Shown in pieces: positions 27,989-48,963 of a stretch of 64,000 nucleotides of DNA (position 1 is the stretch's first letter; each line of letters starts with the position of its first letter). This DNA is from Bryobacterales bacterium F-183 (GTDB taxonomy: Bacteria > Acidobacteriota > Terriglobia > Bryobacterales > Bryobacteraceae). The position numbers were made by a program, and so were the translations under genes. The stretch covers positions 1,240,001-1,304,000 of the forward strand of contig AP025252.1 in assembly GCA_016865505.2 (NCBI GenBank), read 5' to 3'. The notes below the pieces were generated by a model, which was not told the DNA's origin, searched no databases, and saw nothing but the letters and a program-made list of their open reading frames with translations.

Positions 27989-28024
27989 AAAGCCGGGGTA
28001 GCGAAAGCTGCTCCGGCTTTTTTT
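27989..28024 (+). terminator. Rho-independent terminator after the Oar-like gene
   Basis: AAAGCCGGGGTAGC, tetraloop GAAA and GCTGCTCCGGCTTT make a stem of about 12 bp with G-T wobbles, directly followed by a run of seven T. This is the clearest intrinsic terminator in the window. Confidence 0.9.
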
Positions 28025-28069: not shown

Positions 28070-29188
28070 ATGATCCGCCTTGCCACGTTCAACGTTGAAA
28101 ACCTCTTTGACCGTCCCAAGATCATCAATCTGGAAGATACGGCCAAGTCTGCCAGCCTCCTGCAGGCCGCCGCGCAGCTTCAGGCCGAGCTCGCCAAAAC
28201 CGTTTACGACAAGCCGCGCATCGAACAGCTTCTGACAGAGCTCAAAGACTACGTTACTGTTCGCGCCGATCGTGGCAAGTTCTTCAAGACGAACAGCACC
28301 ACTAAGCTGAAGGCCAACGGCAAGGACGACTGGGCCGGCGGCATTGAGTTCCTCCGTGAGAAGTTCAAAGAGCCGCAGCGCGTCAACACCGCGCAAGTCA
28401 TCAAGAACGTCGACGCAGACGTCATGTGTCTCATCGAGGTCGAAGGCCGCCAGGCGCTCAGCGACTTCATGCGCGAGTACATCCCCAACACATCGAAGCG
28501 CCTGATGCGCAACATGCTCATCGACTCGCCGATTGACCCTCGCGGCATCGACATCGCGGTGGCATGGCGCAAAGCCGGCCTCGGCACTATTCGCAGCAAT
28601 GCGTACGACTCACGCCGCGTTAACAACCGCAACGTCAGCGTCTGGAGCCGCGACTGTCTTGAGGTGGAATTGAGCCTCAAAGACAACAAATCCCTTTGGA
28701 TTCTCGCCAATCACTTCAAGAGCAAAGCCGGCGGTGCCACCGCGGCATCGGACGACAAGCGACTGGCGCAAGGCCAGCGCCTTGCCGAGATCCTCACCAC
28801 GCGCTACGACCTCACCCAGGACCTCGTCGCCGTCATGGGCGATCTCAACGATACGCCGGACAGCCCGGCCATCGCGCCGTTGTACGCCGTGCCCAACCTG
28901 CACGATGTCTTCGACGCCGCGGGTACAGACCCGACCGATCGCTACACGTACTACTTCGGTGGCGCGCCAGTCGCCAAGCGCCGTACCCAGATCGACTACA
29001 TCTTTGTTTCCGAGCCGTTGAAGGATGCCATCCAATCGGTCTCTGTGTATCGCAAGGGCATGACTGCGGTCGCCAAAGGCCTCATCCCCGAAGAGACACC
29101 GTTCGCCGGCATCACCGGAGCCAAAGACGCCGCGTCCGACCACGCGGCAATTGTCGTGAACTTTGCGGGGCTCGACCTGCCCGACTAA
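28070..29188 (+). CDS. Endonuclease/exonuclease/phosphatase family protein
   Basis: The 372-residue protein carries the four metal-site blocks of the EEP (DNase I-like) fold: FNVENLFDRP, CLIEVEGRQAL, GDLNDTPDSPA and SDHAAIVVNF at the end. KRRTQIDYIFVSEPL is the expected strand before the last block. There is no evident signal peptide, so it is likely cytoplasmic, acting on DNA or a phosphoester. The neighbouring genes do not narrow the substrate. The ATG has no clear Shine-Dalgarno sequence. Confidence 0.88.
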   Translation: MIRLATFNVENLFDRPKIINLEDTAKSASLLQAAAQLQAELAKTVYDKPRIEQLLTELKDYVTVRADRGKFFKTNSTTKLKANGKDDWAGGIEFLREKFKEPQRVNTAQVIKNVDADVMCLIEVEGRQALSDFMREYIPNTSKRLMRNMLIDSPIDPRGIDIAVAWRKAGLGTIRSNAYDSRRVNNRNVSVWSRDCLEVELSLKDNKSLWILANHFKSKAGGATAASDDKRLAQGQRLAEILTTRYDLTQDLVAVMGDLNDTPDSPAIAPLYAVPNLHDVFDAAGTDPTDRYTYYFGGAPVAKRRTQIDYIFVSEPLKDAIQSVSVYRKGMTAVAKGLIPEETPFAGITGAKDAASDHAAIVVNFAGLDLPD

Positions 29189-29202
29189 CCAACAGCGCTA
29201 TA

Positions 29203-30144
29203 TTGGCCCTGTTGATCCTAGCTGCCATCTTCGTCGTCGTCGCCACTTCACTCACGGCAGCAGAAGACCGCCTCGGGTCCGTCGAGTTCTTTGGCGCTGG
29301 AACCGGCGCGGACGCCCTGCGCGACCACCTGCCGCCCAAGCCCGGCATGCTGCTACCCGAAGACGACGCAGGTCGCGCACGCCTGTTGCAACAGATCGAA
29401 CAAGCTGTCGTACAGCACACAGGCAAGCCTCCAACAGACATCGCGCCCGTCTGCTGCGATGCGCAAGGCCATTGGATCTTCTATATCGGCATCCAAGGTC
29501 CTCGTGTCGCGATGCCGCAAGGCAGGCGTTCGCAAGCCGCTGCTGTACGCGTGCCGCAGGCCTTGCTCGACATCTACCGCCAGACACTCGAACAGAACGT
29601 AGCGGCGGTAAACGCAAGCGCCACTGAAGAGCACACGCGCGGCTACGCACTGTCCACCCACAAGCCCCTGCGCGACGTGCAACTCCAACTCCGGCAGCAG
29701 GCCGTCCCCAACGCTACGCTCCTGTACAAGGTGCTGCAGCAGTCCTCGGATACGGAACATCGCGCCGCCGCCGCTACCGCCATCGGCTACCTCGATCCAT
29801 CGGCCAAGCAAATCCGAGCCCTGCTCGATACCGCGTTCGACCCTGACAGCACGGTACGCAACAACGCACTGCGAGCCCTCTGGGTACTATCGGTGAAGCA
29901 TGCGGCGAAGGTCGTGCAGTACGCGCCGATGCGCAAGCTAGTGGCGCTGCTTCGCTCCGGCCAGTGGTCGGACCGTAACAAGGCACTGCTCTTGCTGATG
30001 TCGCTTGCGCAGACGCAGAACAAAGCGCTGGGCCAAACCCTTCGCAGCGTCGCGATGCCGGAATTGCAGGAAATGTCGCGCTGGCAGAACCCCGGCCACA
30101 GCGATCCCGCCCGGCTCCTGCTTCGATTTGTAGCTGGACTGTAA
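29203..30144 (+). CDS. Membrane-anchored or exported HEAT-repeat protein
   Basis: The frame is open from 28696, but that part is a shadow of the EEP gene. Starts at TTG 29203 or TTG 29212 fit the hydrophobic N-terminus LALLILAAIFVVVATSLTAAE, a signal peptide or anchor. TATATT lies just before 29205. The C-terminal half shows HEAT-like helical repeats (HRAAAATAIGYLDPSAKQIRALLDTAFDP, VRNNALRALWVLS, RNKALLLLMSLA). The N-terminal domain has a CC pair (IAPVCCDAQGHW) and no recognised fold. It would act in the periplasm or at the membrane. Function unknown. Confidence 0.65.
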   Translation: MALLILAAIFVVVATSLTAAEDRLGSVEFFGAGTGADALRDHLPPKPGMLLPEDDAGRARLLQQIEQAVVQHTGKPPTDIAPVCCDAQGHWIFYIGIQGPRVAMPQGRRSQAAAVRVPQALLDIYRQTLEQNVAAVNASATEEHTRGYALSTHKPLRDVQLQLRQQAVPNATLLYKVLQQSSDTEHRAAAATAIGYLDPSAKQIRALLDTAFDPDSTVRNNALRALWVLSVKHAAKVVQYAPMRKLVALLRSGQWSDRNKALLLLMSLAQTQNKALGQTLRSVAMPELQEMSRWQNPGHSDPARLLLRFVAGL

Positions 30145-30155
30145 CCTTTCATTTT

Positions 30156-30185
30156 TTGGGGGAATTGCCAGTTGTCGGCTATTCT
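30156..30185 (+). promoter_or_regulatory. Candidate promoter with near-leaderless start
   Basis: TTGGGG (30156-30161), an 18-nt spacer and TATTCT (30180-30185) end 6 nt before the GTG at 30192. Transcription would then begin at or next to the start codon. No Shine-Dalgarno sequence is present. Confidence 0.5.
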
Positions 30186-30191
30186 GAGTCC

Positions 30192-31418
30192 GTGGCTGCA
30201 ATCCAGTTGCGATTTGTCCTTTGGGGGTTACTGCTTTGCACCGTCTTGCAGGCCGCCGTTCCGATGCGGGTGTATGTCGCTGACCTTGGCGCCAACACCG
30301 TCACACTAGCTTGGGGGCGAGCGGACGGCTCGTCTGAAAACACCATCGGACGCGGCGCCAAAAGCTACGGGGAAGCCACCGTACACATTGGCAATCAAAC
30401 CATCCGTACCAAAGCCTCCTGGACCCAGGTCACCAATCTCGAGCCCGACAAAAAGTACCCGTACACCGTGGAAGTCGGCGGCCAAAAGATCGGCGAAGGT
30501 ACGGTACGCACCTGGCAGGACAAGAGCCAGGCATTTACCTTTTTCGTCATCGGCGACTTCGGCAATGCATCCCGCGCACAGTACGCGATCGCCCGCCGCA
30601 TGGAAGAAGAGTATAAAAAACTGGAAAGTTCCGGCGAGCCAGTACGCTTTGTATTGTCAATGGGCGACAACATCTACGGCAAGATCTCGTCCGGTGGCGC
30701 GCGTGACCGCGATTGGGAAGCCAAGTTCTTTCTGCCCTACGAGTACATCTTGAAGTCAGTACCCTTCAAGGCGGTGTTGGGAAACCACGACGGGAACGAA
30801 TCGGAATCGCGTGCCGACCTCGCCGTGTGCCTCGACAACCTCTTCATGCCGGACCGTTGGTATCGCTTCACGTACGCAAACTTCGCTGAGTTCATCGCCC
30901 TGGACTCCACCACCAACACCGAATCGGGCCCGACCTCCCCCGCGTATACCGATGGTGGCAAGCAATCCACATGGCTCAAAGCCGCGCTCGCCGCACCGCC
31001 GCTACCGTGGCGCCTTGCCGTACTGCACCATCCGATGTTCTCTGCCGGACCCGGCCATTCGAACGCGCTCGAAAAACTTCGCCATTGGTTTGACCTCTTC
31101 AAGAACACCCATGTACAGGCGGTTTTTTCGGGTCACGAACACAACCTGCAGTTTTCCGAACGCAACGCCAACACCGGCAACATGCAGTTCATACTCTCGG
31201 GTTCCGGTGGGGAACTTCGCTCCGGAAGTGTACGAAAGCGGATGAAGGCAGCGTCCATTCGATCTTGGGCGAACCAAAATCAATTTTTAATCGTACGAAT
31301 CCGGGAGGGGGAAATGACCATCCAACCCGTCGGCACCACAACGCAATCCGTACTGCTGCGCGACGAGAACAGCCGCGCGGTGGAACAACCTGTCCGTGTA
31401 AAGAATCTGCAACATTGA
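30192..31418 (+). CDS. Exported purple-acid-phosphatase-like metallophosphoesterase
   Basis: The GTG at 30192 gives a signal peptide (AAIQLRFVLWGLLLCTVLQA), so it is preferred over the upstream in-frame start at 30156. An N-terminal fibronectin-like domain (about 20-110) precedes the catalytic domain. All five metal blocks of purple acid phosphatases are visible: VIGDFGN, MGDNIYG (with the family Tyr), LGNHDGN, VLHHPMF and SGHEHNL. It should cleave phosphomonoesters outside the cytoplasm. It opens a plus-strand run of five genes, with the barrel gene 19 nt downstream behind its own AGGAG site. In this context a role as the phosphatase opposing the kinase-like product of 32700 is an inference. 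Confidence 0.88.
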   Translation: MAAIQLRFVLWGLLLCTVLQAAVPMRVYVADLGANTVTLAWGRADGSSENTIGRGAKSYGEATVHIGNQTIRTKASWTQVTNLEPDKKYPYTVEVGGQKIGEGTVRTWQDKSQAFTFFVIGDFGNASRAQYAIARRMEEEYKKLESSGEPVRFVLSMGDNIYGKISSGGARDRDWEAKFFLPYEYILKSVPFKAVLGNHDGNESESRADLAVCLDNLFMPDRWYRFTYANFAEFIALDSTTNTESGPTSPAYTDGGKQSTWLKAALAAPPLPWRLAVLHHPMFSAGPGHSNALEKLRHWFDLFKNTHVQAVFSGHEHNLQFSERNANTGNMQFILSGSGGELRSGSVRKRMKAASIRSWANQNQFLIVRIREGEMTIQPVGTTTQSVLLRDENSRAVEQPVRVKNLQH

Positions 31419-31437
31419 ACCTGAATCAGGAGAACGA

Positions 31438-32697
31438 ATGAAGTTCTTGTTTGCCGCAGCGTCAACTTTGACATTTCTTTTGGCCTCCCCGTTGGCGGCA
31501 CAAGAATCGCGAACCGAAGAGATCGAAACCGAACGCAAGAAGAAAGCCGCACAGCTCTCCGACGAGTCTGTCTCCAAGGCAGAAGGCCGCTTGCTGATGT
31601 TTAAAGAAGGCAAGTACCTCGAACGTTTCACCGCCGGATACAACGGTTTTCGGGCCAAAATCGGCAATATGGTCACCGGTGGCGGCTTTGCCATCGGACC
31701 CGAATACTATCGCGAAGATCTCTTTGCCGGCCGCATGACAGCGCGAGCCTCCGCGCAAATCTCCACCCGCGGTTTTCAAAAGTACGAAGCCGAAACGCGC
31801 ATCCCCAACTTTGCCCGCCGCATTCTTTCGTTTGAAGGCTTTGCCACCTATCGCAACTACGCCGCCTTGCAGTACTACGGCACGGGTCCCGACCGGCCCA
31901 AGGACCTTCGAGCCAACTATCGCTTGGAAGACACCAGCATCGACGGTATCCTAGGCGCCCAGATGTTCCGCCACGTCAAACTCGGCGGCTCGCTCGGCTA
32001 CCTCTGGACCAACGTCGGCCCCGGAAACGATCGCCGCTTTATCTCAGCCGAAAAAGTCTTTACGCCCGCCGTCGCGCCTGGCATCGACGAGCAGAGCAAC
32101 TTCCTCCGCCCCGGTTTGTTTGCACAATACGACTACCGCGACAACACGCAAGGCATCGCCAAGAGCGGCGGCAACTACGTCTTCCAGTACTCCTGGTTCC
32201 TCGACCGTAAGCTGCAGCGCTACAGCTTCCGCCGCATGGATATCGACCTTCAGCAGTACATCCCGTTCCTGAACAAAACCCACGTCATCGCCTTGCGAGC
32301 CAAGACCACGATGACGGAAACCGACCGCAATGAGGCTGTACCGTTTTACCTGCAGCCCATCCTCGGCGGCTCCGACGACCTCCGAGGCTACCGCTTCTTC
32401 CGCTTCGGTGATCGCAACAGCATGGTGATGAACGCCGAGTACCGTTGGGAAATCTTTAGCGGACTCGACGGCGCTATCTTCGCCGATGCTGGCAAGGTCA
32501 CGCCGCGCCGTGGCCTCATCAACTTTCGCGACCTCGAATCGTCCGTAGGCATGGGCCTCCGCTTCAACGCCCGCAACGCCACCTTCATCCGCATCGATGT
32601 CGCTGCCAGCCATGAAGGCGTACAGGTCTGGTTCAAGTTCAACGACGCATTTCCATCGCGCCGCTTCGGTACCACTTCAGGGCAACCGGTGTATTAA
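31438..32697 (+). CDS. BamA/TamA-like surface-antigen outer-membrane barrel
   Basis: The 419-residue protein starts with a signal peptide (MKFLFAAASTLTFLLASPLAAQ) after an AGGAG site. A short charged linker and a barrel with ERFTAGYNGFRAKIGNMVTGGGFAIGPEYY at its start follow. Near the end lie LQPILGGSDDLRGYRFFRFGDRNSMVMNAEYRWE and FADAGKV. GGSxxLRGY with RfxxxN is typical of bacterial surface antigen (D15) barrels. POTRA domains are lacking, so it is not the housekeeping BamA. It could translocate or anchor partners. The kinase-like gene starts 2 nt downstream. Confidence 0.82.
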   Translation: MKFLFAAASTLTFLLASPLAAQESRTEEIETERKKKAAQLSDESVSKAEGRLLMFKEGKYLERFTAGYNGFRAKIGNMVTGGGFAIGPEYYREDLFAGRMTARASAQISTRGFQKYEAETRIPNFARRILSFEGFATYRNYAALQYYGTGPDRPKDLRANYRLEDTSIDGILGAQMFRHVKLGGSLGYLWTNVGPGNDRRFISAEKVFTPAVAPGIDEQSNFLRPGLFAQYDYRDNTQGIAKSGGNYVFQYSWFLDRKLQRYSFRRMDIDLQQYIPFLNKTHVIALRAKTTMTETDRNEAVPFYLQPILGGSDDLRGYRFFRFGDRNSMVMNAEYRWEIFSGLDGAIFADAGKVTPRRGLINFRDLESSVGMGLRFNARNATFIRIDVAASHEGVQVWFKFNDAFPSRRFGTTSGQPVY

Positions 32698-32699
32698 CC

Positions 32700-34247
32700 A
32701 TGAAGAAATTCCTGCTTCCTCTCACCGTTGCCGTCAGCGCCGCCCTGGCGCAACAGCCCAAGTTCTACACCGACGATCCGCTGCTCAAGGAGCCCGCGCC
32801 GCTCAACATCGAGAAGGCCAAGGCTCGCAAGCTCAGCGACTACTACGATCTGTTCTCGCACCAGTTCGGCAAGCTCGGCGAACGTCATCCGCAGAACGGC
32901 CCGCCCATTCGCGCCAAGGCCGTTAACACCCTCGGCGAACCCATGGACGGCGCCTGGTACACCCACCGGCACTACTTCAAGCGCATGACCAAAGAGGAGC
33001 TGGAAGCAGGTCCCGGCAATCGCCGTCCGCCCGCCGGCCAGCAGTGGACCGTGGTCGGCGCAAAGTCAGAAGGCATCACGCCCGGCTTCACGATCCTCGA
33101 CGGCAACGGCCAGCGTTACTTCATCAAGTTCGACCCCATCAGCAACCCCGAGATGGCCACCGCCGCGGACTCGATCTCGTCGCGCTTCTTCTACGCACTC
33201 GGCTACCACGTACCCGAAAACTACATCATCCAGTTCGACCCCGAACAGTTGAAGCTCGGCGACGATGTTGAACTCGCCGACAGCACCGGCCGCAAGCGCA
33301 AGATGACCCGTCGCGACATCTACGAGATCCTCGTCAAGGTTCCCAAGTCGGACGACGGTTTGTATCGCGCCACCGCCAGCCGCGCCATCGACGGCAAGCC
33401 CATGGGACCACCGCGTTACTACGGCACGCGCCGTGACGACCCCAACGACATCGTCCCGCACGAACACCGTCGCGACCTTCGCGGGTTGCATGTCTTCTGC
33501 GCCTGGCTCGACCACGACGATTCGCGCTCCATCAACAACTACGACGCGCTTGTCAAAGAGAACGGCGTCCAGTTCTTCCGGCATTACCTTTTGGACTTCG
33601 GCTCCACCCTTGGCAGCGGCAGCCAACGCCCCAACAGCGCACGCTCGGGTGCGTACTTTTTCACCTGGAAAGGCTCGGCCAAACAGCTCGGTACCCTCGG
33701 CCTGATGCCGCCCTATTGGGCCCTCGCCCGCTACCAGTACTTCCCGTCGATCGGCTACATCGAGGGCGACGTCTTCGACCCCGACCTGTGGGTGCCCGAG
33801 TACCCCAACCCAGCCTTCATCAACCGTCTTCCCGACGATGAGTTCTGGGCCGCCAAGCAGGTGATGGCCTTCACCGACGAAGACATCAAAACCCTCGTCG
33901 CCACCGGCGAACTCTCCGACGGCCGCGCTGAAACCTACCTCGTCGAAGTGCTCAAAAAGCGTCGCGACAAGATCGGCGCCAAGTACTTCGCCAAGGTTCT
34001 GCCGTTTGATCGCTTCCGCCTCGACACTAGCGGCAAGCTCCTCTGGGACGATCTCAGTAAGAGCATCAACGATGCCAAGGTCGCCTGGTTCAGCTACGAC
34101 AACAAGACCGGCACGCGCACTCCGGCCGCGAACAGCAGCCCCAGCGGCTACAGCCTCGCCGTCGTCAGTTCCGCCACGCGGCCCAAGCAAACCATCGAGG
34201 TCTACCTGCGCGATGGGAATATAATCGGCATCGACCGCCACTGGTAA
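32700..34247 (+). CDS. Exported protein with HipA/FAM20-like kinase motifs
   Basis: The 515-residue product begins with a signal peptide (MKKFLLPLTVAVSAALAQ). The middle carries an ordered set of motifs resembling atypical kinases. K143 lies in QRYFIKFDP (strand with the ATP lysine). E151 starts a helix, EMATAADSISSRFFYALGYHVPE, like the helix of PI4K, HipA and FAM20 folds. An Asp/Asn-rich catalytic-loop candidate, LDHDDSRSINNYD (270-282), and D299-F-G in YLLDFGSTLG follow. If real, this is a kinase outside the cytoplasm. Annotation pipelines would likely call it hypothetical. It lies between an outer-membrane barrel gene and an NTT-like carrier gene with 2-3 nt spacings. Activity is inferred, not shown. 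Confidence 0.6.
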   Translation: MKKFLLPLTVAVSAALAQQPKFYTDDPLLKEPAPLNIEKAKARKLSDYYDLFSHQFGKLGERHPQNGPPIRAKAVNTLGEPMDGAWYTHRHYFKRMTKEELEAGPGNRRPPAGQQWTVVGAKSEGITPGFTILDGNGQRYFIKFDPISNPEMATAADSISSRFFYALGYHVPENYIIQFDPEQLKLGDDVELADSTGRKRKMTRRDIYEILVKVPKSDDGLYRATASRAIDGKPMGPPRYYGTRRDDPNDIVPHEHRRDLRGLHVFCAWLDHDDSRSINNYDALVKENGVQFFRHYLLDFGSTLGSGSQRPNSARSGAYFFTWKGSAKQLGTLGLMPPYWALARYQYFPSIGYIEGDVFDPDLWVPEYPNPAFINRLPDDEFWAAKQVMAFTDEDIKTLVATGELSDGRAETYLVEVLKKRRDKIGAKYFAKVLPFDRFRLDTSGKLLWDDLSKSINDAKVAWFSYDNKTGTRTPAANSSPSGYSLAVVSSATRPKQTIEVYLRDGNIIGIDRHW

Positions 34248-34250
34248 TTC

Positions 34251-35633
34251 ATGGCCCAAAACAAGCGGACCGACTATCAATCCATACCCGAGCTGCGCAC
34301 GCAGACGATGTTCCCCTCCTTCACCGTCGAAGGAGAAATCAAGCGCGGTCCGCTGGAACGTTTCCTGTCGCTCTTTGCCGACGTCCGCGCGGGCGAAGGC
34401 GCAAGCGCCCTGGTGATGACGCTCAACGTCCTGCTGTTGTTGAGCGCCTATTACCTGCTTAAAACCGCACGCGAACCGTTGATCCTCACCGAAGGCGGCG
34501 CTACCGTCAAAGCCTACTCTGCCGGTGGTCAGGCCGCGCTGCTCATGGCCCTCGTACCCTTGTACGGCTACGTTGCCTCCAAGGTGAATCGTCTCAAGCT
34601 GGTCATCGGTCTGATGCTGTTCTTCGCCTCGCACCTGCTCATCTTTCAAGCCATGGGAGTAGCCGGCGCAGCGATCGGCGTCGCATTCTACATCTGGGTC
34701 GGCATCTTCAACGTCTTCGTCATCTCCCAGTTCTGGGCCTTCGCCAACGACTTGTACACAGAAGGCCAAGGCAAGCGCTTATTCCCGATGATCGGTGTCG
34801 GAGCCTCGCTCGGAGCCCTCGCCGGATCGCAAGCCGCTACGTGGCTGTTCAAGGAGTTCCAGCTTTCGCCGTACGCTTTGATGACGGGTGCCGCCGCTCT
34901 CTTGGGCGTCTGTTCAGGACTCGTCTTCCTGGCCAATAGCCTCGAAAACAATCGCGAGTCGAATGCCATGAACAAGCACGCCAACGACAAGGTCGAAGGG
35001 GAAAACGGCTTCTCGCTCGTACGCAAGAGCCGCTACCTGACCTTGATCGCCATGCTGATCGTGCTGCTCAACGTGGTGAACACCACGGGTGAATTCCTGC
35101 TCAGCAGCGTGGTGTCGGAAGAAGCGCAAAAGCTCCACCCCGACGACAAAGACGCGCGGGGCAAGTTCATCGGCGGCTTCTACGGCGAATACTTCTCCTG
35201 GGTCAACCTGCTCGGCCTCCTGCTCCAGACCTTCGCCGTATCACGTATCTTCGACTTCATCGGCGTACGAGGTTCGCTGTTCATCTTGCCTTCGCTTGCT
35301 TTGACGAGCTACTCGCTGATGGCTGTCGCACCCATCCTCAGCGTCGTCCGAGCCGCAAAAATGGCCGAAAACGCCACGGATTACTCATTGCAGAATACCG
35401 TACGCCAAGCGCTCTTCTTGCCCACCAGCCGCGCCGAAAAGTATAAAGCCAAGGCCGCCATCGACACGTTCTTTATGCGCATGGGTGACGTCCTGCAGGC
35501 GGGCATCGTCAAAGCAGGTTCAGAGCTATCGGTAGGCTTTACCGGCTTCGCGTGGTTCAATGCGTCGCTCACCGTGGTCTGGCTCTACATCGCGTACCTG
35601 CTCGGCCGCGAACATCGCAAGATGGGCTTCTAG
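34251..35633 (+). CDS. NTT-type (ATP/ADP translocase-like) nucleotide carrier
   Basis: The 460-residue protein has about 10-12 membrane helices. Its start is typical of the bacterial/plastid nucleotide transporter family: LERFLSLFADVRAGEGASALVMTLNVLLLLSAYYLLKTAREPLIL. Further family-like segments are FWAFANDLYTEGQGKRLFPMIGVGASLGALAGS and LFLPTSRAEKYKAKAAIDTFFMRMGD. Characterised members exchange ATP, ADP or other nucleotides across membranes, while roles in free-living bacteria are poorly known. It follows the kinase-like gene by 3 nt and precedes the PQQ gene by 3 nt. Substrate and direction cannot be read from sequence. Confidence 0.82.
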   Translation: MAQNKRTDYQSIPELRTQTMFPSFTVEGEIKRGPLERFLSLFADVRAGEGASALVMTLNVLLLLSAYYLLKTAREPLILTEGGATVKAYSAGGQAALLMALVPLYGYVASKVNRLKLVIGLMLFFASHLLIFQAMGVAGAAIGVAFYIWVGIFNVFVISQFWAFANDLYTEGQGKRLFPMIGVGASLGALAGSQAATWLFKEFQLSPYALMTGAAALLGVCSGLVFLANSLENNRESNAMNKHANDKVEGENGFSLVRKSRYLTLIAMLIVLLNVVNTTGEFLLSSVVSEEAQKLHPDDKDARGKFIGGFYGEYFSWVNLLGLLLQTFAVSRIFDFIGVRGSLFILPSLALTSYSLMAVAPILSVVRAAKMAENATDYSLQNTVRQALFLPTSRAEKYKAKAAIDTFFMRMGDVLQAGIVKAGSELSVGFTGFAWFNASLTVVWLYIAYLLGREHRKMGF

Positions 35634-35636
35634 CCA

Positions 35637-37007
35637 ATGCTAGCGGCCCTTGTCTGTTCCATTGCCGTCAGTCTTCTGGCAGCTGACGACTGGTCACGCT
35701 TTCGAGGACCCAACGGCAGCGGCATCGCCACCGGAAACAGCAGCTACCCAATCGAGTTCGCGCGTGATCGCAACATGCTCTGGCGTACCCCAGTGCGCCC
35801 CGGCAAGTCCTCACCCGTACTCACAGACCGCCACCTCTTTCTCACGGCCTTCGACGACCAAACGCTCTACACGCAGTGCTTTGACCGCGCCACCGGCAAG
35901 CTCCTCTGGGAACGTGGCGAGCCACTCGCGCACAAGCTCGGCACCAACGCGCTCAATCACCCCGCCGCGATCTCGCCCGTCACCGACGGCTCCAACGTCT
36001 ACGTCTTTTTCAAGGACCTCGGCCTGCTCTCCTACACACCGGCCGGCAAGCTCCGCTGGCGCGTCCCGCTAGGTCCCTTCACCAATAGCCAAGGCCTGGG
36101 CGCAGCCCCGATCCTCGCTCGCGACATGATCATCCTGCAGGTGGATCAACTCGAGGACTCCTACCTCGCCGCCTTCGCCATCAAGGACGGCAAGCAGCGT
36201 TGGAAGGTCGCACGCGAGGAATCCGAAAGCTGGGGGACGCCCTTGCTTTGGAAGGGCGACACCATCGTCACCGTCGGCGCGAACCAGATCGGCGGACATC
36301 GCATCACCGACGGCAAGCGAGTCTTTACCTTCCCCGGCGCCAGTCCCTCGATGGTGGCAAGCCCGATCCTCGACGACGCCAACAACATCCTGTATGCGTT
36401 CGGCTACGGCTACGCCACAAGCCTCCCGTTTGAACGCCTTCTCGAACGCAGCGACAAGAACAAGGACGGCAAACTCAGCCCCGACGAATACGGTACGCTC
36501 AACGTCCTGAGGGCCGCAGGGCAGTACATGGGCAATCGCGACGGTACGGTGACCGCTCACGAGTGGGATCTTTGGAATCGCCACGTCCAAGGCCCTTCCG
36601 GGCTCATCGCGCTAGACCTCAAGCCCGCGCAACCAAAGCTGCTTTGGCGCTATGAGAAAGGCTTCGACAGCGTGATTCCGTCCCCGCTTTTGCACGCTGG
36701 CATTCTGTACTCGGTGCGCAACGGAGGCATCTTAACGGCTTTCGACGTACGCACCGGCGAGGTCACCAAGACCGCACGCATCCCAGGCGCTCTCGGAGGC
36801 TACGCGGCCTCACCCACTTTCGCCGCAGGGCATCTGTACATCTGCAGTGAAGAAGGCAAGGTCGCCGTACTCAAGCCGGGCCCGCAGTGGGACCTCGTGC
36901 AACTCAACGACCTGAAGGAAGACATCTTCGCCACACCCGCCTTCTCCCGCGGCGTGATCTTTATCCGTACTGCGGAAGCGCTCTACGCCTTCGGCCTCAA
37001 GAACTAG
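35637..37007 (+). CDS. Exported PQQ-like beta-propeller with inserted EF-hand
   Basis: The 456-residue protein has a signal peptide (MLAALVCSIAVSLLAA) and repeated propeller blades with tryptophan/glycine patterns (DDWSRFRGPNGSGIA, TGKLLWERG, AGKLRWRVPLG, KDGKQRWKV). A calcium-binding-type loop, DKNKDGKLSPDEYG (near 275-288), and a second partial loop (NRDGTVTAHEWD) interrupt the propeller. Such proteins are common in Planctomycetes and Acidobacteria as periplasmic binding or scaffold proteins. It is the last gene of the plus-strand run, 3 nt after the NTT gene. It overlaps the convergent NTT-HEAT gene by 11 bp. Confidence 0.85.
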   Translation: MLAALVCSIAVSLLAADDWSRFRGPNGSGIATGNSSYPIEFARDRNMLWRTPVRPGKSSPVLTDRHLFLTAFDDQTLYTQCFDRATGKLLWERGEPLAHKLGTNALNHPAAISPVTDGSNVYVFFKDLGLLSYTPAGKLRWRVPLGPFTNSQGLGAAPILARDMIILQVDQLEDSYLAAFAIKDGKQRWKVAREESESWGTPLLWKGDTIVTVGANQIGGHRITDGKRVFTFPGASPSMVASPILDDANNILYAFGYGYATSLPFERLLERSDKNKDGKLSPDEYGTLNVLRAAGQYMGNRDGTVTAHEWDLWNRHVQGPSGLIALDLKPAQPKLLWRYEKGFDSVIPSPLLHAGILYSVRNGGILTAFDVRTGEVTKTARIPGALGGYAASPTFAAGHLYICSEEGKVAVLKPGPQWDLVQLNDLKEDIFATPAFSRGVIFIRTAEALYAFGLKN

Positions 37008-39348
37008 CTTTCTTCACACGCAACAATCGTTCCGCGTTTGTCTCCAGCAACAGCGCCATCATTTGTTCCCGAGCCTCTTTGGTCTCCGCTTCCGGTGGTG
37101 GCGTCTCTTCCAGTACTGTCCACAACCGCTTCCGGATCTCTTCGGGAATCACACTCTCCAGATACTCCAACGCCAACCCGCGAAACATGCGATCTTCCTG
37201 GTGCAGCGCGCGGAACGCCGCCATCAATGGATCCCGCGGCAGCACCACCGCGAATAGCGAAAACACATGCTCCAGGCTGCGATTGGCGCGCTCCCGCAGG
37301 ACATCGTCCAAAAAGTCATACCCGCCGCTATCTCCGCCATCGGAATCATGCAGTACGGTCGTCTTCTGGCGTGAACTCCAAATTGCCTGATTCACGGTCA
37401 GCTCACGCTCGGCCGCCGCCATCACCGCACGATCATGAAAATCCAGATTCTCGCAGTGCCGCTTCATATACTCCAGCGCCCTGCCACACTGGTACCGGAT
37501 CTCAAATCGCGGATCGTTCAACGCATTCACCAGGCCATCGACGCTCTGTTGTGACGCAACGCGAGCCAGCAACCTTGGCAACCGCCGCCGGATCGCAAAG
37601 TCCACATCCTGATCCGTCAGCGCATCGTTAATCTGCCCGGCAATGCGCTTGCCGCCACGTTCCAGGTACTGCCGTGCTGCTGCACTCACTTCGTCCCAAG
37701 CCAACAGCCGGATCACCTGCGGCACCGCTAGCGGATCAAACGGCTCCCCATCGGTCAAAGCCGCGACCACGCGCTTCGCATTGCGGCTACGCAACTCCAA
37801 CAGTCGCTCTACAGAAGGATCCTGAATGCGCTGCTTCTCCACCACCACAACCGGCTTCGCAGCCGCAGCAACGGCAGGTACGCTCTTCGCCGCCTCCGGC
37901 GTCAGCGTATCCAGATTCTCGTTCGTCTCCGACGGATGCTTCGGCGGAGGCTCCTTCACCGCAGGCATCTGGCTGAACGACGGCAAGCCCTCAAACACAG
38001 TATTCATCAGGGACTCGTCACGTTCACTCCGATGCGTACCGCCCGTCTCCTCCGCCGCGCTGTCTTCCTCTTCGCGCGCCCGCTCCACGAGACCGCGCTC
38101 CAGAACCCCGCGGTACGACCCTTCCAACCGCAACGCCAAGGTCGCGCTGATCGTGGTCAACACCATGCCAAGACCCAATATTTCCGGCCTTGCCAATTGC
38201 GGACCCAGCCACACCATGATTTGTACGGCGCCAGCGCCAGCGGCATCGCCCAAACGGTCAAACCCCACGTCGATGATCGTTTTTACTGCGCGCTTATCGC
38301 TCGGCGGCACCGGCGTGTACAGAAACTCGTACCCGCTTCGAAACAGCGACCCTCGCAACACCACTTCAATCCCGCGCAGCAACGCGACCAGCGGGTACAC
38401 AGGCACCAGCAGCGCCACCGTGGACCCTAAGCCCACCGCTACCGGCAACGTCGCCACCGATCGCGACACACCAAGCCACTCCACAGCGGGCTTGGCCAGG
38501 AACGTCTGCAGCAGAAACGTCAGCACCTGACACGCCGTATAGAACACCGCGAAGTACCGCACCAGTCCCGGACCCTTGCCGATCGATAACGTCGCGCCCA
38601 ACTTGAACAGGTAATCGAGCAACGCAGCCGTACACGTACCCAAGAACACTAGCGCTGCCAACTGCCACAACAGCGGTGTCTGCCGGAACGCTTCCGCCGC
38701 GCTCGTCTCTTTACCGCGCGGACGCAGCCTTCTCTTCTGGCTGGTCGGCAGCGGCTTCAGCCGCCACGCGATGCCCGCGCAGACCACATGGAACCCGCCC
38801 AGCACCACCAGCATGTAATCGCCCAGCGACCATGCCACCAGACGCTCCGCCAGCAGACCCCCTGCGATCCCCCCCGCCGTACCGAACCCCGCGATGCGCC
38901 CGAACCGCTTCTTGGCCTCGCGCAGGTCGAACACCTCGCTCAACAACAGCCAGAAGCCGGACAGCAGAATCGCGCCCAGCCCGACCACATGCAGATAGAT
39001 CGCAACCGCCACAGGACGCGGCAGTACCGGCGCCAGCATCCACTCCACGACATGCAGAAGTCCGCTGACAGCAAAGGATATGGGGATTGTCCGCGCAGGA
39101 CCAAAACGCTCGTTCCCGCGCGAAAACACAATCGCCAGCAAAAAGCTCAGCAGCGCCGCGGAGACCACCATCTTGGGCAGGTCCGAAGGATCGAACTGCT
39201 GCAGAAAGAAGCCGTCGCGCGCCGCCTTCGACGCCACCTGATGCGCGATCATCGTGAAGGACCCGGCCATCGCCAGGCCCATCACTGCTTGTGGATCGTG
39301 ATTGTCTCGTTTGTTGTTTGCTGTTACAGCGCCGCCGGCCACTGGCAA
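36997..39348 (-). CDS. NTT-like membrane carrier fused to HEAT-repeat domain
   Basis: The 783-residue protein has two parts. Residues ~20-430 form about 12 membrane helices with the NTT/MFS-like VASKAARDGFFLQQFDPSDLPKM, REAKKRFGRIAGFGTAGGIAGG and PVPPSDKRAVKTIIDVGFDRLGDAAG. After a low-complexity linker (~430-520), the C-terminal ~260 residues are helical HEAT-like repeats (VPQVIRLLAWDEVSAAARQYLE, FEIRYQCGRALEYM, MFRGLALEYLESVIP). The TTG start at 39348 directly abuts the stop of the Ser/Thr kinase gene; GTG 39342 is an alternative. Precedent for NTT-HEAT fusions exists in the literature as I remember it. The HEAT part probably senses or docks a partner, perhaps the kinase. Confidence 0.78.
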   Translation of the reverse strand: MPVAGGAVTANNKRDNHDPQAVMGLAMAGSFTMIAHQVASKAARDGFFLQQFDPSDLPKMVVSAALLSFLLAIVFSRGNERFGPARTIPISFAVSGLLHVVEWMLAPVLPRPVAVAIYLHVVGLGAILLSGFWLLLSEVFDLREAKKRFGRIAGFGTAGGIAGGLLAERLVAWSLGDYMLVVLGGFHVVCAGIAWRLKPLPTSQKRRLRPRGKETSAAEAFRQTPLLWQLAALVFLGTCTAALLDYLFKLGATLSIGKGPGLVRYFAVFYTACQVLTFLLQTFLAKPAVEWLGVSRSVATLPVAVGLGSTVALLVPVYPLVALLRGIEVVLRGSLFRSGYEFLYTPVPPSDKRAVKTIIDVGFDRLGDAAGAGAVQIMVWLGPQLARPEILGLGMVLTTISATLALRLEGSYRGVLERGLVERAREEEDSAAEETGGTHRSERDESLMNTVFEGLPSFSQMPAVKEPPPKHPSETNENLDTLTPEAAKSVPAVAAAAKPVVVVEKQRIQDPSVERLLELRSRNAKRVVAALTDGEPFDPLAVPQVIRLLAWDEVSAAARQYLERGGKRIAGQINDALTDQDVDFAIRRRLPRLLARVASQQSVDGLVNALNDPRFEIRYQCGRALEYMKRHCENLDFHDRAVMAAAERELTVNQAIWSSRQKTTVLHDSDGGDSGGYDFLDDVLRERANRSLEHVFSLFAVVLPRDPLMAAFRALHQEDRMFRGLALEYLESVIPEEIRKRLWTVLEETPPPEAETKEAREQMMALLLETNAERLLRVKKASS

Positions 39349-40998
39349 CTAGGCTCTCATAATCTCCAGGCGCGACGCCGTCTCTTCCGTACCCTGCGGT
39401 ACGCGAGGATCGTCACCGGCCCCTTCGAGAGTATCGGGCACACTCGGATTCGGGATGTTCGTCTCCCACCACTGCGCGGCCATGTCGCGGCAGAAGGTCG
39501 GTACGTCGTCCAACCGTTCTAGCTTGCGCGCCAGATCTTGCGCCGATTTTGGACGCTTCTCCGGATCCTTATCCAGACACTGCAGAATCACCCGCTCCAA
39601 CCCAGCCGGAACTGGCAATTCCGTACGCTCATTCATCGGCACCGGGCTCTTTTGTACGTGCGCCAAAGCCATTGCCGTAGGTGTCGCCTCGGGGAACACC
39701 AAGCCACCCGTCAGCATGAAGTACGCCACGCACCCCAGGCTATAAATATCGGTACGGCCGTCCACCTTCGCGCCACCCAGCGCCACTTCCGGTGCCATAT
39801 ACGCCGGCGTACCAGTGGCCGAACCATCCATCGTCATCATGGATTCGTCCTGGCCGAGCTTGGTCTTTACCAGCCCAAAGTCCAAAACCTTGGCAAAGTC
39901 ATGCTGCCAGCCCAGCTTCGACAAAAAGATGTTGCGAGGCTTGATGTCGCGATGCACCATGCCCAACCGGTGGGCTTCCTCCAGGGACTCGCAGATCTGG
40001 ATCAGAATATTGCGCACCCGCCCCGGATGCATCGGCCCATGGCGATCCACTAGCGTCTGCAGGTCGATTCCTTCCAGCAGTTCCATCACGTAATAGAACA
40101 TGTTGTCGGACGTGACGCCAAAGTCGTACAGCGCAACCGTATGCGGATTGCGCAACGCCGCCGTCGCCCGGGCCTCACGCTCAAAGCGCTTGCGAATCAC
40201 CGCCTCATTCCGCATTGTTTGACCGGAAAGCAGTTCCGGACGGATCAGCTTCACCGCCGCCGGACGCGCCAGCATTTTGTGGTTCGCCAGCCAGACCTCA
40301 CCCATGCCGCCCTGCGCGATCACGCGATCGAGCGCATAGCTGCCCAGGTCTTCCGCCTTCTGGGACTGAATCTGCATCGTGTACATCCGGCGATTCAGGT
40401 AGTTGGTCAGCACCACCGACAACACCATGGGAATCATCCACATCGCGAAGCGGTTCCAACCGATAAAGTCATGCCCAAAGACGAGGATGGACGCGTAGTA
40501 CCCGGCAGGCCACATCAAGCCAGTCAGGATTCCGGTCACAAGGTTCAGCGCCGGAGTATTCGGAATCAGCATCCCGCACACCACCAACCAAAGGGTGGTG
40601 CCGGAAATGCCAACCACGGGCACGGCAGAGCTGGAGACCAGCGAACACTCGGCGAGGCTGATGGCAAAGCCGATCAGCACCTGAAATCCACTGCCCAAAT
40701 AGAGGATGGTTTGTTTGGAAAACCAGCCAGCAGCCTGCACGCCGGCAAATGCAAAAGACAGCAATACGATCGACAGCGCCATCAGACGGGTCACCGGATG
40801 TTGCTGCATATACGCCGCTTCCGGCTGCAGGAACCCGTCGGCAACAAAGTACGCGACGCAGAACACCGCACTGATCATCGCCACCATGCAAAGGCGCACG
40901 ACGGCTTTTTCCAATAGCTTGGGCGGCAAAGCAAACCCGCTAGGTTTTGCCAGATCGCCAGTATTTGTGGACGGACCTCTCGCTAATTGTTTCGGCAT
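39349..40998 (-). CDS. Membrane Ser/Thr protein kinase with N-terminal multi-helix domain
   Basis: The 549-residue protein has about six N-terminal membrane helices (residues ~30-200), then a complete PknB-type kinase. Motifs are the glycine loop VIAQGGMGEVW, AAVKLIRPE with the ATP lysine, catalytic MVHRDIKPRNIFL, metal-binding DFGLVK and GTPAYMAPE. The kinase is C-terminal, so it faces the cytoplasm while the membrane part may sense. The stop codon abuts the NTT-HEAT start, implying strict co-expression. Phosphorylation of the NTT-HEAT protein is an attractive but untested idea. Most bacterial PknB-type kinases instead have the kinase first and the membrane helix after it. Confidence 0.92.
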   Translation of the reverse strand: MPKQLARGPSTNTGDLAKPSGFALPPKLLEKAVVRLCMVAMISAVFCVAYFVADGFLQPEAAYMQQHPVTRLMALSIVLLSFAFAGVQAAGWFSKQTILYLGSGFQVLIGFAISLAECSLVSSSAVPVVGISGTTLWLVVCGMLIPNTPALNLVTGILTGLMWPAGYYASILVFGHDFIGWNRFAMWMIPMVLSVVLTNYLNRRMYTMQIQSQKAEDLGSYALDRVIAQGGMGEVWLANHKMLARPAAVKLIRPELLSGQTMRNEAVIRKRFEREARATAALRNPHTVALYDFGVTSDNMFYYVMELLEGIDLQTLVDRHGPMHPGRVRNILIQICESLEEAHRLGMVHRDIKPRNIFLSKLGWQHDFAKVLDFGLVKTKLGQDESMMTMDGSATGTPAYMAPEVALGGAKVDGRTDIYSLGCVAYFMLTGGLVFPEATPTAMALAHVQKSPVPMNERTELPVPAGLERVILQCLDKDPEKRPKSAQDLARKLERLDDVPTFCRDMAAQWWETNIPNPSVPDTLEGAGDDPRVPQGTEETASRLEIMRA

Positions 40999-41154: not shown

Positions 41155-43764
41155 CTATCGCTTCCGAATCTCGGACTCCAACGCGTCCAACTCAATCCGC
41201 AGCCGCCGCAACCGTTCCAGGATGCGCGTATTCACATCCTCCTGCGGAGCGACAGCCGGCTTCCCTTCCGTCGTACCACCCGCCGACTCAGGCTCTGTCC
41301 GCATCTGCGGCGCAGGACCCCCTGCCAGCACTTCCAGCGCCCTCTCGTACGTATCCTCGTACACGATGCGCCCGCCCATCGCCAGCACTACCTTCTTCAA
41401 CTGCGGCATCCGCGCATTCGCCGCCTGCAGATAAATCGGCTTCACATACAGGAACGTATCGTCCACCGGCAGCACCAAGGTCTGCCCGCGCAACACTTGC
41501 GACCCCTGCTGGTTCCACAAGTTCAGGTCCTTCGATATCGTTTGATCCTGATCGATCCGCGCCTCCAACTGCATCGGACCAAGGAGCACTTCCTGCTTCG
41601 GCATCTGCAGGAACACGATCTCGCCATAGTGCGCCGGATCGTTCCGCGCCGCCATGTACCCGATCAGGTTGTCCTTCCCGCGCGGCGAAAACGGCAGTAC
41701 TAACAAAAACTCCGCCTGCGTCTCCCCCGGCAACGCCGCTAACACGAACGTCGGCTCCATTGCCTGCGCCCCAGCGCCTTGCTTCTGGACGTACCGCGCG
41801 CGATCCCACAAGTCCGCTTTGTTGTAAAACGCCTCAGGGTCCCGCATATGGTACGTGCGGTAAATAAACGCCTGTGCCTCGAACATCTTCTCGCCGAACC
41901 GCAAATGCTCGCGGATCTCCTGCGGCATCTGCGACCCTTCCCGGAACAGCTTCGGAAACAGATTCTGGTACGACCGCACCACCGGGTCTGTCGGATCCAC
42001 GATGTAGATGTTCGTCTCGCCATCGTAAGCATCCACCGTCGCCTTCACCGAATTGCGGATGTAGTTGTAGGACCGGAATCGCCCCTCCGACACATACTGC
42101 GAATACGGATGCGCGTCCGAAGTCAGGTACCCGTCCACGATCCACACCAGCCGTCCCTCTTTCGTCATCACCAGGTACGGATCCTGATCCCAATCCACGA
42201 ATCCGGCCAACGTCTCCAACCGGTCATCCACATTGCGATGGATCAGCATCCGGCTATCGCCAGTCAGGTAACTCGTCAGCACGATGTTCGGATTGCCGTA
42301 CGCCGCAGCGGCCAGCAAACGCATGCCGAACCCGCTCACCGGGATGCCGCGATTGCCCTGGTACTTCGTATGCACGTTGTCCGAACCCGACGGGTAATCA
42401 AACTCCTGCTGCGCCGTACGCACAAACACCGGCTCATGCGTGATCTCGCCGTAGTACAGCTCCGGCCGCGTCAGCTTCAGCGACGGCGTACTCACCTCCG
42501 GCGGCGCATCCTGGACGTACAACTGCGGCAGCCCGTTATTGTTGATCTTGTTCGAATCCGCCAGCACCAGGCCGTACCCGTGCGTGTACACAAAGTTCGG
42601 ATTCACCCACTGGTTCCGCGCATCGCCCAACTGCTCAATGTCCAACTCGCGCGGCGCCACCATCACCTGCCGCACCATGCCGTTGATGTTGTACCGGTCG
42701 ACGTCGATATCCCGGTACGTATACGGGCGCAACGGCTGCACCTGGCTTACTGTGTCGCGAAACGCCTGCCAATCCCATAGCCGTACGTTCTCGAGGACCT
42801 GCCGGTGCTTCGCAAAATCGATCTTCGCGTCCGCCTTCGCCGCAAAACTGATCTCGCGCGTACCCTTGTCTAACCCGTATGCCGAAAGCGTCGCCGCAAT
42901 GTGACGTTCAATGTACGGCTTCTCGAGCGAAATCTCATTCGGCTTCACATACGCGGCAGCCACCGCGCCCGGCACCACCACACGCAGGATCGCCGCCACG
43001 ATAGGACCCGGCAACGCCAGCCAGTACCGTCCCATCGCGACAAACACCCCGCTCGCCACCAGCGCCATGATGGACACCCACTGCAAAGGCAGCCGGATCT
43101 TCTCGTCCACATAATCCGCGCCGGTCAAAAAACCGTGCTGCGACGTCAGCAGTTCGTACCGGCCAAAGTACAGCCGCACGGCCCAAAAAATCAGCAGCGC
43201 CGCGCCCAAAAAGCGCAGAGGCTTGGTCACTTCGATCCGAATCTGTTTGTCGCCAAACGGAATTGAGGACACAAAGTAGATCACCGTCCCCAAAAACGTC
43301 AACAACATCAGCCCATTGATGCTTTGTATATAAAAGGGCAGGTCGAACAGGTAGTACGACAGCGGCTCCCCAAACAAAGGATCGCGCCAGGATGACGCAC
43401 TCGCCGTAGAATGCCCGCCAAAGTACTGCACAATCGTCCACGGGCTCACCGTCGCCGCGCCGATCACCAGACTGAATACCGCAATCAGGACATTCGCCGC
43501 GCTGTAGTTCGGCGGGTCGACATCAATAATCTCCGCCATGGACCGCGCCCGCCTGCGTCCCAACAAAAATGCCGTACGAAAGATGAAGAACGCCAACACC
43601 GCCGCGGCCAACCGTGGTGCATACCGGTATAGCGCCATGCTGTACCACGTATCCAATTGCCCCATCTCGTTCCACCAAGCGTAGTCGATAATCGCCGATG
43701 CGGAAAAGGTCAGCAAAAAGAAGCCAACCACCAGAGCGCCGAGTATCCAACGGAGTTGAGTCAT
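41155..43764 (-). CDS. UPF0182 family membrane protein
   Basis: The 869-residue protein matches the UPF0182 (COG1615) layout. Seven N-terminal membrane helices (residues 1-270) include ALYRYAPRLAAAVLAFFIF. A large extracytoplasmic domain follows with YTYRDIDVDRYNINGM, FVYTHGYGLVLA, LYYGEI, WIVDGYLTSDAHPYSQ and AYDGETNIYIVDPTDPV. An acidic, coiled C-terminus (DVNTRILERLRRLRIELDALESEI) ends the protein. The family is widespread in actinobacteria and cyanobacteria with unknown function. It lies 156 nt upstream of the kinase on the same strand and may or may not belong to that unit. Confidence 0.92.
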   Translation of the reverse strand: MTQLRWILGALVVGFFLLTFSASAIIDYAWWNEMGQLDTWYSMALYRYAPRLAAAVLAFFIFRTAFLLGRRRARSMAEIIDVDPPNYSAANVLIAVFSLVIGAATVSPWTIVQYFGGHSTASASSWRDPLFGEPLSYYLFDLPFYIQSINGLMLLTFLGTVIYFVSSIPFGDKQIRIEVTKPLRFLGAALLIFWAVRLYFGRYELLTSQHGFLTGADYVDEKIRLPLQWVSIMALVASGVFVAMGRYWLALPGPIVAAILRVVVPGAVAAAYVKPNEISLEKPYIERHIAATLSAYGLDKGTREISFAAKADAKIDFAKHRQVLENVRLWDWQAFRDTVSQVQPLRPYTYRDIDVDRYNINGMVRQVMVAPRELDIEQLGDARNQWVNPNFVYTHGYGLVLADSNKINNNGLPQLYVQDAPPEVSTPSLKLTRPELYYGEITHEPVFVRTAQQEFDYPSGSDNVHTKYQGNRGIPVSGFGMRLLAAAAYGNPNIVLTSYLTGDSRMLIHRNVDDRLETLAGFVDWDQDPYLVMTKEGRLVWIVDGYLTSDAHPYSQYVSEGRFRSYNYIRNSVKATVDAYDGETNIYIVDPTDPVVRSYQNLFPKLFREGSQMPQEIREHLRFGEKMFEAQAFIYRTYHMRDPEAFYNKADLWDRARYVQKQGAGAQAMEPTFVLAALPGETQAEFLLVLPFSPRGKDNLIGYMAARNDPAHYGEIVFLQMPKQEVLLGPMQLEARIDQDQTISKDLNLWNQQGSQVLRGQTLVLPVDDTFLYVKPIYLQAANARMPQLKKVVLAMGGRIVYEDTYERALEVLAGGPAPQMRTEPESAGGTTEGKPAVAPQEDVNTRILERLRRLRIELDALESEIRKR

Positions 43765-46260: not shown

Positions 46261-46893
46261 CTATCTGCGCCAGCGTCGCCGGCGGCTAACCGCGAGCACC
46301 AGCACGCCGCCTAGCGTGAGTATCTGAACAGGTTCCGGGACCGTCGTCACCGTAGGGATGGACCCGGTCAAACGTGCAGCACCAGCGGCAGAGATTCCAG
46401 CGGACTCCCAGGGGCCATTATCGATCGCAAAGAAAACCGATGCGGACTCATACGAGTCATGCCAAAGCGCGGCCACTCCAGTTCCGCGGGGAGCCAACGT
46501 CAGAATGTAATTCACTCCAGCGGTGAGCTTCGGTCCGCCCGGCGTTGCTAGCGTCGTGAGTACTGTATCCGACTGCCCGGGCCTCTCTGTCGTCGTGAAA
46601 TCCCATGAACCAAGAAGATCACCGGGCCCGGTAACACCATCGGTCCAGAGATTCGCAGTGAGAGTACCCTTTCGACTCGCTGCAACACCAAGCTCAATCT
46701 GTTCCAGTACCGCTGTGGTCAGGGCCGTGAATCGAAAGCCCTGCGTGATGGTGAGCAGCGCAACATCGTTTGTCGAAATATTTCGCGACACTTTCCCCTT
46801 GTAAAGGACCGGATCGCCCAGGTTGCTATAAATGGTCTCGCCGCGAAGAGCGCATGCGAATACCATGACGTGAATCAAGCGAAGGGACTTCAT
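46261..46893 (-). CDS. PEP-CTERM secreted protein 1
   Basis: The 210-residue protein has a signal peptide, then YSNLGDP..., the recurrent LWTDGVTGPGDLLGSWDF and LATPGGPKLTAGVNYILTL. It ends with a sorting signal: VPEPVQILTLGGVLVLAV and an Arg cluster (SRRRRWRR). PEP-CTERM tails are cut by exosortase during export to the surface or matrix. The body resembles choice-of-anchor-type domains. The ATG overlaps the upstream paralogue's stop by 4 bp. Unlike four of its neighbours it lacks the CC pair before the TPGGP motif. Confidence 0.85.
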   Translation of the reverse strand: MKSLRLIHVMVFACALRGETIYSNLGDPVLYKGKVSRNISTNDVALLTITQGFRFTALTTAVLEQIELGVAASRKGTLTANLWTDGVTGPGDLLGSWDFTTTERPGQSDTVLTTLATPGGPKLTAGVNYILTLAPRGTGVAALWHDSYESASVFFAIDNGPWESAGISAAGAARLTGSIPTVTTVPEPVQILTLGGVLVLAVSRRRRWRR

Positions 46894-47561: not shown

Positions 47562-47583
47562 ATCACGATCCGCGCTCTTTCCA

Positions 47584-48234: not shown

Positions 48235-48267
48235 ACCTCAGAAGGCGCGTTTTCCGCAGTGTACCGA

Positions 48268-48900: not shown

Positions 48901-48963
48901 AACAGGTAACGCGCTGTTTGTCGGAACATCTGATCAAGTACGGTGTAGAGCAGATGGCGACTT

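Follow-up and report, generated by a model that had tools for sequence, protein, structure and literature searches.

The locus and its question

Can a bacterium phosphorylate molecules outside its cytoplasm, and from where would the phosphoryl donor come? Lumenal FAM20 kinases of the animal Golgi are already known, and the bacterial periplasm is taught to lack ATP, with kinases not expected there. The question is raised by a gene cluster of Bryobacterales bacterium F-183 (Acidobacteriota), located in the 64,000-nucleotide stretch analysed here (positions 1,240,001 to 1,304,000 of contig AP025252.1, assembly GCA_016865505.2; hereafter the window). The cluster encodes a kinase-like protein, termed KIN, beside an outer-membrane barrel of the Omp85 superfamily and a carrier of the NTT family, whose subfamily is termed NTT-E (Table 1). 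The gene set is conserved among soil-type Acidobacteria. A previous sequence-only reading had proposed here a cell-envelope phosphorylation system composed of an exported phosphatase, the barrel, the kinase-like protein, two NTT carriers and a membrane kinase. According to our analysis, there is about an even chance that the locus represents an exported, outer-membrane-tethered FAM20/HipA-type kinase system, which in many genomes is supplied by an NTT-type carrier.

KIN is an exported protein with a predicted kinase fold

KIN had no family match in Pfam or NCBIfam, and neither the single sequence nor its profile found anything significant among the PDB sequences. The AlphaFold model, predicted from an alignment of 47 relatives (pLDDT 92.2, pTM 0.92), has a kinase fold nearest to FAM20C and the HipA type, in agreement with the sequence-only reading, which had suggested modelling KIN against FAM20 and HipA. 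All top fold matches in the PDB were proteins of the kinase superfamily, namely Fam20C (zebrafish, human and worm; ranking first with E 7e-4), CtkA, HipT, RIO2, HipA and PI3-kinases. Moreover, weak HipA_2/HipA_C matches were present in the relatives of KIN (HipA_2 in 16 of the 47 members). Judged by the model, KIN is a kinase-fold protein of the FAM20/HipA superfamily.

The order of motifs is likewise kinase-like: YFIKF, a helix, HDDSRSIN (the catalytic loop HDDSRxxN), two strands and LLDFG. Over 65 KIN loci, K143 was conserved in 53, D274 in 59, N279 in 62 and D299 in 64, whereby the roles (catalytic Asp, Asn, metal Asp, nucleotide-binding Lys) were assigned by motif order, not by structural superposition. 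The window KIN has a signal peptide, and a hydrophobic N-terminal leader, recognised by a simple heuristic, was strong in 61/65 members of the family, which is therefore considered exported. The search for KIN on plasmids gave no match. One copy was located on a contig labelled Arcobacter sp. (L044), yet it groups inside the Acidobacteriota, and the contig probably belongs to a misbinned metagenome-assembled genome.

The outer-membrane barrel is the constant partner of KIN

An Omp85 gene directly precedes KIN in the same orientation, at a distance of at most 269 nt, in 64 of the 65 loci, the remaining one (L077) being cut by a contig end. This adjacency holds down to about 37% KIN identity. 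The pair is present in the culturable Edaphobacter aggregans DSM 19364 (L052). The pairing is obligatory, and the core is a two-gene unit of barrel and KIN. The sequence-only list had placed kinase and carrier together in one system; the constant partner of KIN proved to be the barrel and not the carrier or the phosphatase. In the window, the Pfam Omp85 match covers residues 102-390 of the barrel protein, and the NCBIfam model Omp85_fam matches at 9e-23, under that model's cut-off. No POTRA domain was matched in Pfam; about 100 residues precede the barrel, which resembles the 'noNterm' subfamily of Omp85 proteins. A precedent for a periplasmic enzyme domain held by an Omp85 barrel is the patatin-Omp85 protein PlpD (PMC11116518), with the difference that its lipase is on the same polypeptide as the barrel, without a kinase or carrier.

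NTT-E carriers accompany exported kinases

The proximity of carrier and kinase was tested with 40 KIN loci from an evenly drawn sample of the phylum, with an expectation derived from genome size and the number of genes. In 16/40 loci, a gene for an NTT or NTT-HEAT protein was within 5 kb of KIN (0.29 expected), and the maximum reached in 200,000 simulations was 5. Together with the barrel statistics, this places the gene arrangement far beyond chance. The sequence-only reading had been staked on conserved gene order, a kinase fold in KIN and a nucleotide cargo of the 34251 protein; nothing observed refuted any of the three.

Recurrence was further sought among copies of NTT-E in genomes or places without KIN. 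In five genomes (L100, L103-L106), the operon order was exported PPP-like phosphatase, kinase, NTT and one or more kinases. These kinases form a second exported family of about 280 aa, termed PK, with the motifs NEDRHxxN and IDHSR and with leaders seen by eye. By its profile, PK is clearly similar in sequence to FAM20, matching the structures of FAM20A (3.4e-12), FAM20B (2.1e-8), FAM20C (3e-8) and C. elegans Fam20 (5e-7); PI4-kinases were matched at 1e-5. The KIN and PK profiles did not match each other significantly, although they aligned at the catalytic motif. The two families also occur together in one cluster: barrel, KIN, PK, phosphatase and PK follow each other in L092 (7758-12990), and barrel, KIN, PAP2 and PK in L093 and L096 (6594-8609).

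A rather unlikely explanation is that KIN is a kinase of envelope lipids or glycans (lipopolysaccharide, phospholipid or an exported glycan), for which the barrel serves as anchor or substrate channel. The superfamily includes the xylosylkinase FAM20B and the PI4-kinases, both matched by PK, and PAP2 or undecaprenyl-diphosphate phosphatase genes adjoin some copies, but these neighbours are not constant, and no sign of a lipid-binding surface was seen. In favour of this explanation, the enzyme PlpD is borne by an Omp85 barrel on the periplasmic side, and membrane lipids change when PlpD is lost (PMC11116518). Against it, proteins are the substrates of FAM20A and FAM20C, the closest matches by sequence and by fold.

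In a third arrangement, a kinase-like domain with the motifs GDWDRHxxQW and EDRDQAF is fused to an Omp85 barrel, and the fused gene lies beside or directly downstream of NTT-E (L102, L178). The profile of the barrel family finds the C-terminus of the fused proteins with E-values down to 2e-20, and their kinase-like segment matches the PK profile at 1e-5. In the PDB, the best match of this family was CtkA, which was non-significant, and the AlphaFold model from 7 sequences reached a pLDDT of 50 and was not used for a fold search. Of the three families, the fused one is thus the least secure as a kinase, a reading suggested by the motifs and the profile similarity to PK. In Persicobacter (Bacteroidota), a single protein of 1214 aa contains a Metallophos domain (1e-11), a kinase-like segment and Omp85 (3e-11), so that one chain joins three functions that are split over three neighbouring genes in the window. 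A 1252-aa 'hypothetical protein' on a plasmid of Hymenobacter radiodurans (L142, 2804-6562), encoded downstream of an undecaprenyl-diphosphate phosphatase gene, begins with a degenerate segment resembling a phosphatase, contains a kinase-like region and ends in Omp85. The N-terminal segment was dismissed as a direct homologue of the window phosphatase, its similarity being not significant; the Metallophos domain of the Persicobacter protein is intact instead. In L176, a single strand carries barrel-KIN, NTT-E and a gene for a kinase-Omp85 fusion in a span of about 8 kb.

At the genome level, all 21 of the NTT-E-bearing genomes among the first 199 also carried KIN, PK or the fusion, a figure that is not independent because the same genomes were used to find the kinase families. 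Among 195 held-out genomes, 22 had NTT-E, and 19 of these carried KIN or PK, compared to 53/195 overall (p=9e-10). A kinase-like/Omp85 fusion located 115 nt downstream of NTT-E (G341) made the 20th of the 22, and the two exceptions were an NTT-E copy close to the end of its contig (G224) and a partial carrier in a 76% complete genome (G338). The kinase was in the NTT-E neighbourhood in 13 of the 20 held-out loci read, and the genomes with NTT-E spanned 14 families in the first set and 13 in the held-out set. NTT-E is therefore linked, both statistically and by operon, to three families of exported kinases or kinase-like proteins, and the connection of exported kinase and carrier drawn in the sequence-only reading is conserved beyond KIN itself.

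Proposed mechanism and points weighing against it

In the mechanism that we propose, the barrel probably holds KIN on the periplasmic side of the outer membrane, while NTT-E in the inner membrane would exchange nucleotides between cytoplasm and periplasm and so give KIN its phosphoryl donor. KIN would then phosphorylate proteins, lipids or glycans that belong to the envelope or are secreted, and the exported metallophosphatase (the 30192 protein in the window, other families elsewhere) might reverse the modification, erasing the marks made by KIN, or clear the spent nucleotide. Such an arrangement would be the bacterial counterpart of the animal Golgi with its lumenal FAM20 kinase and ATP import. 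A stronger form of the proposal is advanced tentatively: in Acidobacteria and, in the fused form, in Bacteroidota, there would be true ATP- or nucleotide-dependent periplasmic phosphorylation, whereby NTT carriers export, Omp85-anchored kinases of the FAM20 type write and phosphatases erase.

Several observations weigh against these proposals, the first group of which concerns KIN. The TM-scores of its fold matches were modest (0.3-0.5), indicating similarity at the superfamily level only, and the PDB profile search found no recognisable sequence homology of KIN to FAM20. Of the 65 members, 12 carry another residue at K143 and 6 at D274; some of these may be pseudokinases, and the catalytic activity of KIN itself is a prediction. 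An improbable explanation built on such substitutions, which affect K143, D273 and D274 in several clades, is that KIN has another activity (AMP- or glutamyl-transferase) or none, acting as a pseudokinase scaffold which assembles or gates the barrel, with the NTT serving general nucleotide salvage. That the barrel rather than the carrier is the constant partner would fit this; however, D299, N279 and D274 are conserved to the extent given above, the catalytic set is intact in the window KIN and its clade, and a scaffold role leaves unexplained why NTT-E goes along with three families of exported kinases or kinase-like proteins. The idea that loss of catalytic residues tracks the absence of NTT was not retained, only a loose trend being visible on the tree by inspection.

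The second group concerns the association itself. In more than half of the KIN loci, no NTT gene is present out to about 8 kb, no NTT was detected in four KIN-bearing genomes, and the genome association statistics ignore phylogeny. A metallophosphatase of the window type was near KIN in 8/65 loci, in close relatives only, and is lineage-specific. The exported phosphatase of the sequence-only list was thus borne out in part: it recurs as the PPP-like gene of the PK operons and as the fused domain of Persicobacter, but the 30192 type does not accompany KIN in general.

The third group concerns the cargo of the carrier. The TLC match of the window protein is above the curated Pfam cut-off, and the NTT profile matches the structures of the C. 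pneumoniae carrier (3e-19) and of Arabidopsis NTT1 (3e-13), within which superfamily NTT-E forms a distinct subfamily with its own signature of invariant residues. Four charged residues, K155, E245, E385 and K527, are important in AtNTT1 (PMC4256464, PMC3306366). In NTT-E, the ADP-site residue K155 is kept as K87 and E385 probably corresponds to E281, the alignment being gapped there, while the transport-essential E245 is replaced by G151 and the ATP-site K527 by D413. Because of these last two replacements, NTT-E is to be placed by its residues in the NTT superfamily and not in the canonical ATP/ADP exchanger group. Outside the canonical clade, moreover, an NTT that transports NAD has been described (PMC5381601). 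For both reasons the cargo is uncertain and might be ADP, another nucleotide or ATP bound by altered contacts, so that ATP transport by the 34251 protein, as the sequence-only reading proposed, is a conjecture. Since characterised NTTs import nucleotides, carrier and phosphatase could also be thought to scavenge nucleotides or phosphate, the kinase-like protein being regulatory or incidental, all the more as an exo/endonuclease-phosphatase and the purple-acid-phosphatase-like enzyme share one unit with the carrier. We regard this as very unlikely: the phosphatase and the nuclease are not conserved with NTT-E, whereas the exported kinase families are.

Comparison with known systems

Like KIN and PK, the animal kinases FAM20A/B/C are signal-peptide-bearing members of the superfamily acting outside the cytosol, the difference being that the window system is bacterial, that its operons also encode a nucleotide carrier and a phosphatase, and that KIN is paired with an outer-membrane barrel. 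KIN is alike in fold to HipA/HipT and CtkA and has weak profile similarity. The toxins HipA and HipT act in the cytoplasm and are paired with antitoxins, whereas KIN is exported and has no adjacent HipB-like gene. Bacterial members are not mentioned in the FAM20 structure paper, and in a survey of the Legionella kinome the FAM20 cluster is described as specific to eukaryotes or to metazoa (PMC9758233). NTTs are broadly present in free-living bacteria, and NTT-HEAT fusions have been described already (Major et al., 2017, PMC5381601); in contrast to that description, in which a kinase is not mentioned, NTT-E is tied to exported kinases. Fusions of PF00149 to Omp85 ('Metallo') and related POTRA-less barrels ('noNterm') are also described (Heinz and Lithgow, 2014, PMC4104836), in a paper which treats PF00149, the family of calcineurin-like phosphoesterases, as a metalloprotease and does not mention a kinase. 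The Persicobacter protein shares the 'Metallo' architecture, while the window encodes phosphatase and barrel separately. Literature searches, with most subscription papers and bioRxiv preprints outside their scope, returned no bacterial FAM20 or NTT-kinase system. The parts are known, and their combination appears to be undescribed as a bacterial system.

A carrier together with exported FAM20-type kinases would make phosphorylation in the bacterial periplasm and on the cell surface directly testable. It would also assign a function to the POTRA-less Omp85 barrels and to an NTT subfamily of free-living bacteria. With PK being clearly FAM20-like in sequence, the finding bears on the origin of the animal FAM20 kinases. 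The stronger proposal, if true, would give bacteria either their own, independently arisen version of the animal system of secretory kinases or the form ancestral to it.

Transcription unit and accessory genes

The seven open reading frames from 30192 to 40998, the plus-strand gaps of 19, 2, 3 and 3 nt and the convergent 11-bp overlap (36997-37007, between 35637..37007 on the plus and 36997..39348 on the minus strand) were confirmed by their coordinates. A terminator-like hairpin at 27989-28021, just upstream of 28070, suggests that the plus-strand transcription unit starts there and extends over 28070-37007, so that the phosphatase gene would be preceded by two others. One of these, the HEAT-repeat gene at 29182..30144, was not seen again outside the window, where no search was aimed at it. 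For the phosphatase, a TTG at 30165, preceded by GGGGGAA, may be a better start than 30192.

Table 1. Genes of the window discussed in the text
Feature	Position	Strand	Evidence
Exo/endonuclease/phosphatase-family protein, probable first gene of transcription unit	28070..29188	+	Exo_endo_phos_3 2e-15; ExeM/NucH-like 8e-13
Exported HEAT-repeat protein, probably in the 28070-37007 unit	29182..30144	+	HEAT_2 3.8e-7; signal peptide
Exported purple-acid-phosphatase-like metallophosphatase	30192..31418	+	Pfam Metallophos 1e-13; N-terminal hydrophobic segment
POTRA-less Omp85-superfamily outer-membrane barrel, core partner	31438..32697	+	Pfam Omp85 4.6e-16; signal peptide
KIN, exported FAM20C/HipA-like kinase-fold protein, core	32700..34247	+	AlphaFold model, fold matches, conserved residues
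NTT-family nucleotide carrier, NTT-E subfamily	34251..35633	+	Pfam TLC 3.6e-13; profile against NTT structures
Exported PQQ/BamB-like beta-propeller with EF-hand	35637..37007	+	Pfam PQQ_2 5e-19; EF-hand_5 1e-4
NTT-HEAT fusion protein, accessory	36997..39348	-	Pfam HEAT_2 and MFS_1; NTT profile E=2.4e-14
Membrane Hanks-type Ser/Thr kinase (STK), accessory	39349..40998	-	Pfam Pkinase 6e-41; four predicted transmembrane segments, then kinase domain

The phosphatase has five metal motifs of purple acid phosphatases by inspection (GDFG, GDNIY, GNHD, VLHHP and GHEH), and the N-terminal domain of that family was matched at E=0.016, under the cut-off. Pfam assigns the 36997 protein to MFS_1 and HEAT and not to TLC; it is found by the NTT profile made here, in line with its earlier label as NTT-HEAT. 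Its pair with the STK recurs beside the barrel-KIN unit in about a dozen loci. The STK itself, formerly counted as part of the envelope system, looks from its sequence like a standard membrane STK paired with NTT-HEAT, its kinase domain being probably cytoplasmic. It was matched, as a single gene, by many PADLOC kinase defence models (best PD-T4-6), a lead that was set aside; PADLOC found nothing for 30192, 31438, 32700, 34251 or 36997. The PQQ propeller, which had also been listed, was rejected as a part of the system, because besides the window it stands beside KIN only in an 85%-identical relative (L031). The EF-hand motif inside this propeller is DKNKDGKLSPDE.

Further along the minus strand, a gene for a large membrane protein of the UPF0182 family (41155-43764, Pfam 6e-215) adjoins the STK gene. 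Five consecutive genes on the same strand (46261-49665, minus) encode proteins of 210-233 aa without a Pfam match, possibly a tandem family. An ABC transporter gene (50869-53385, minus), about 10 kb from the STK gene, encodes FHA domains fused to the ATPase and an ABC-2 membrane domain, which suggests phospho-dependent regulation.

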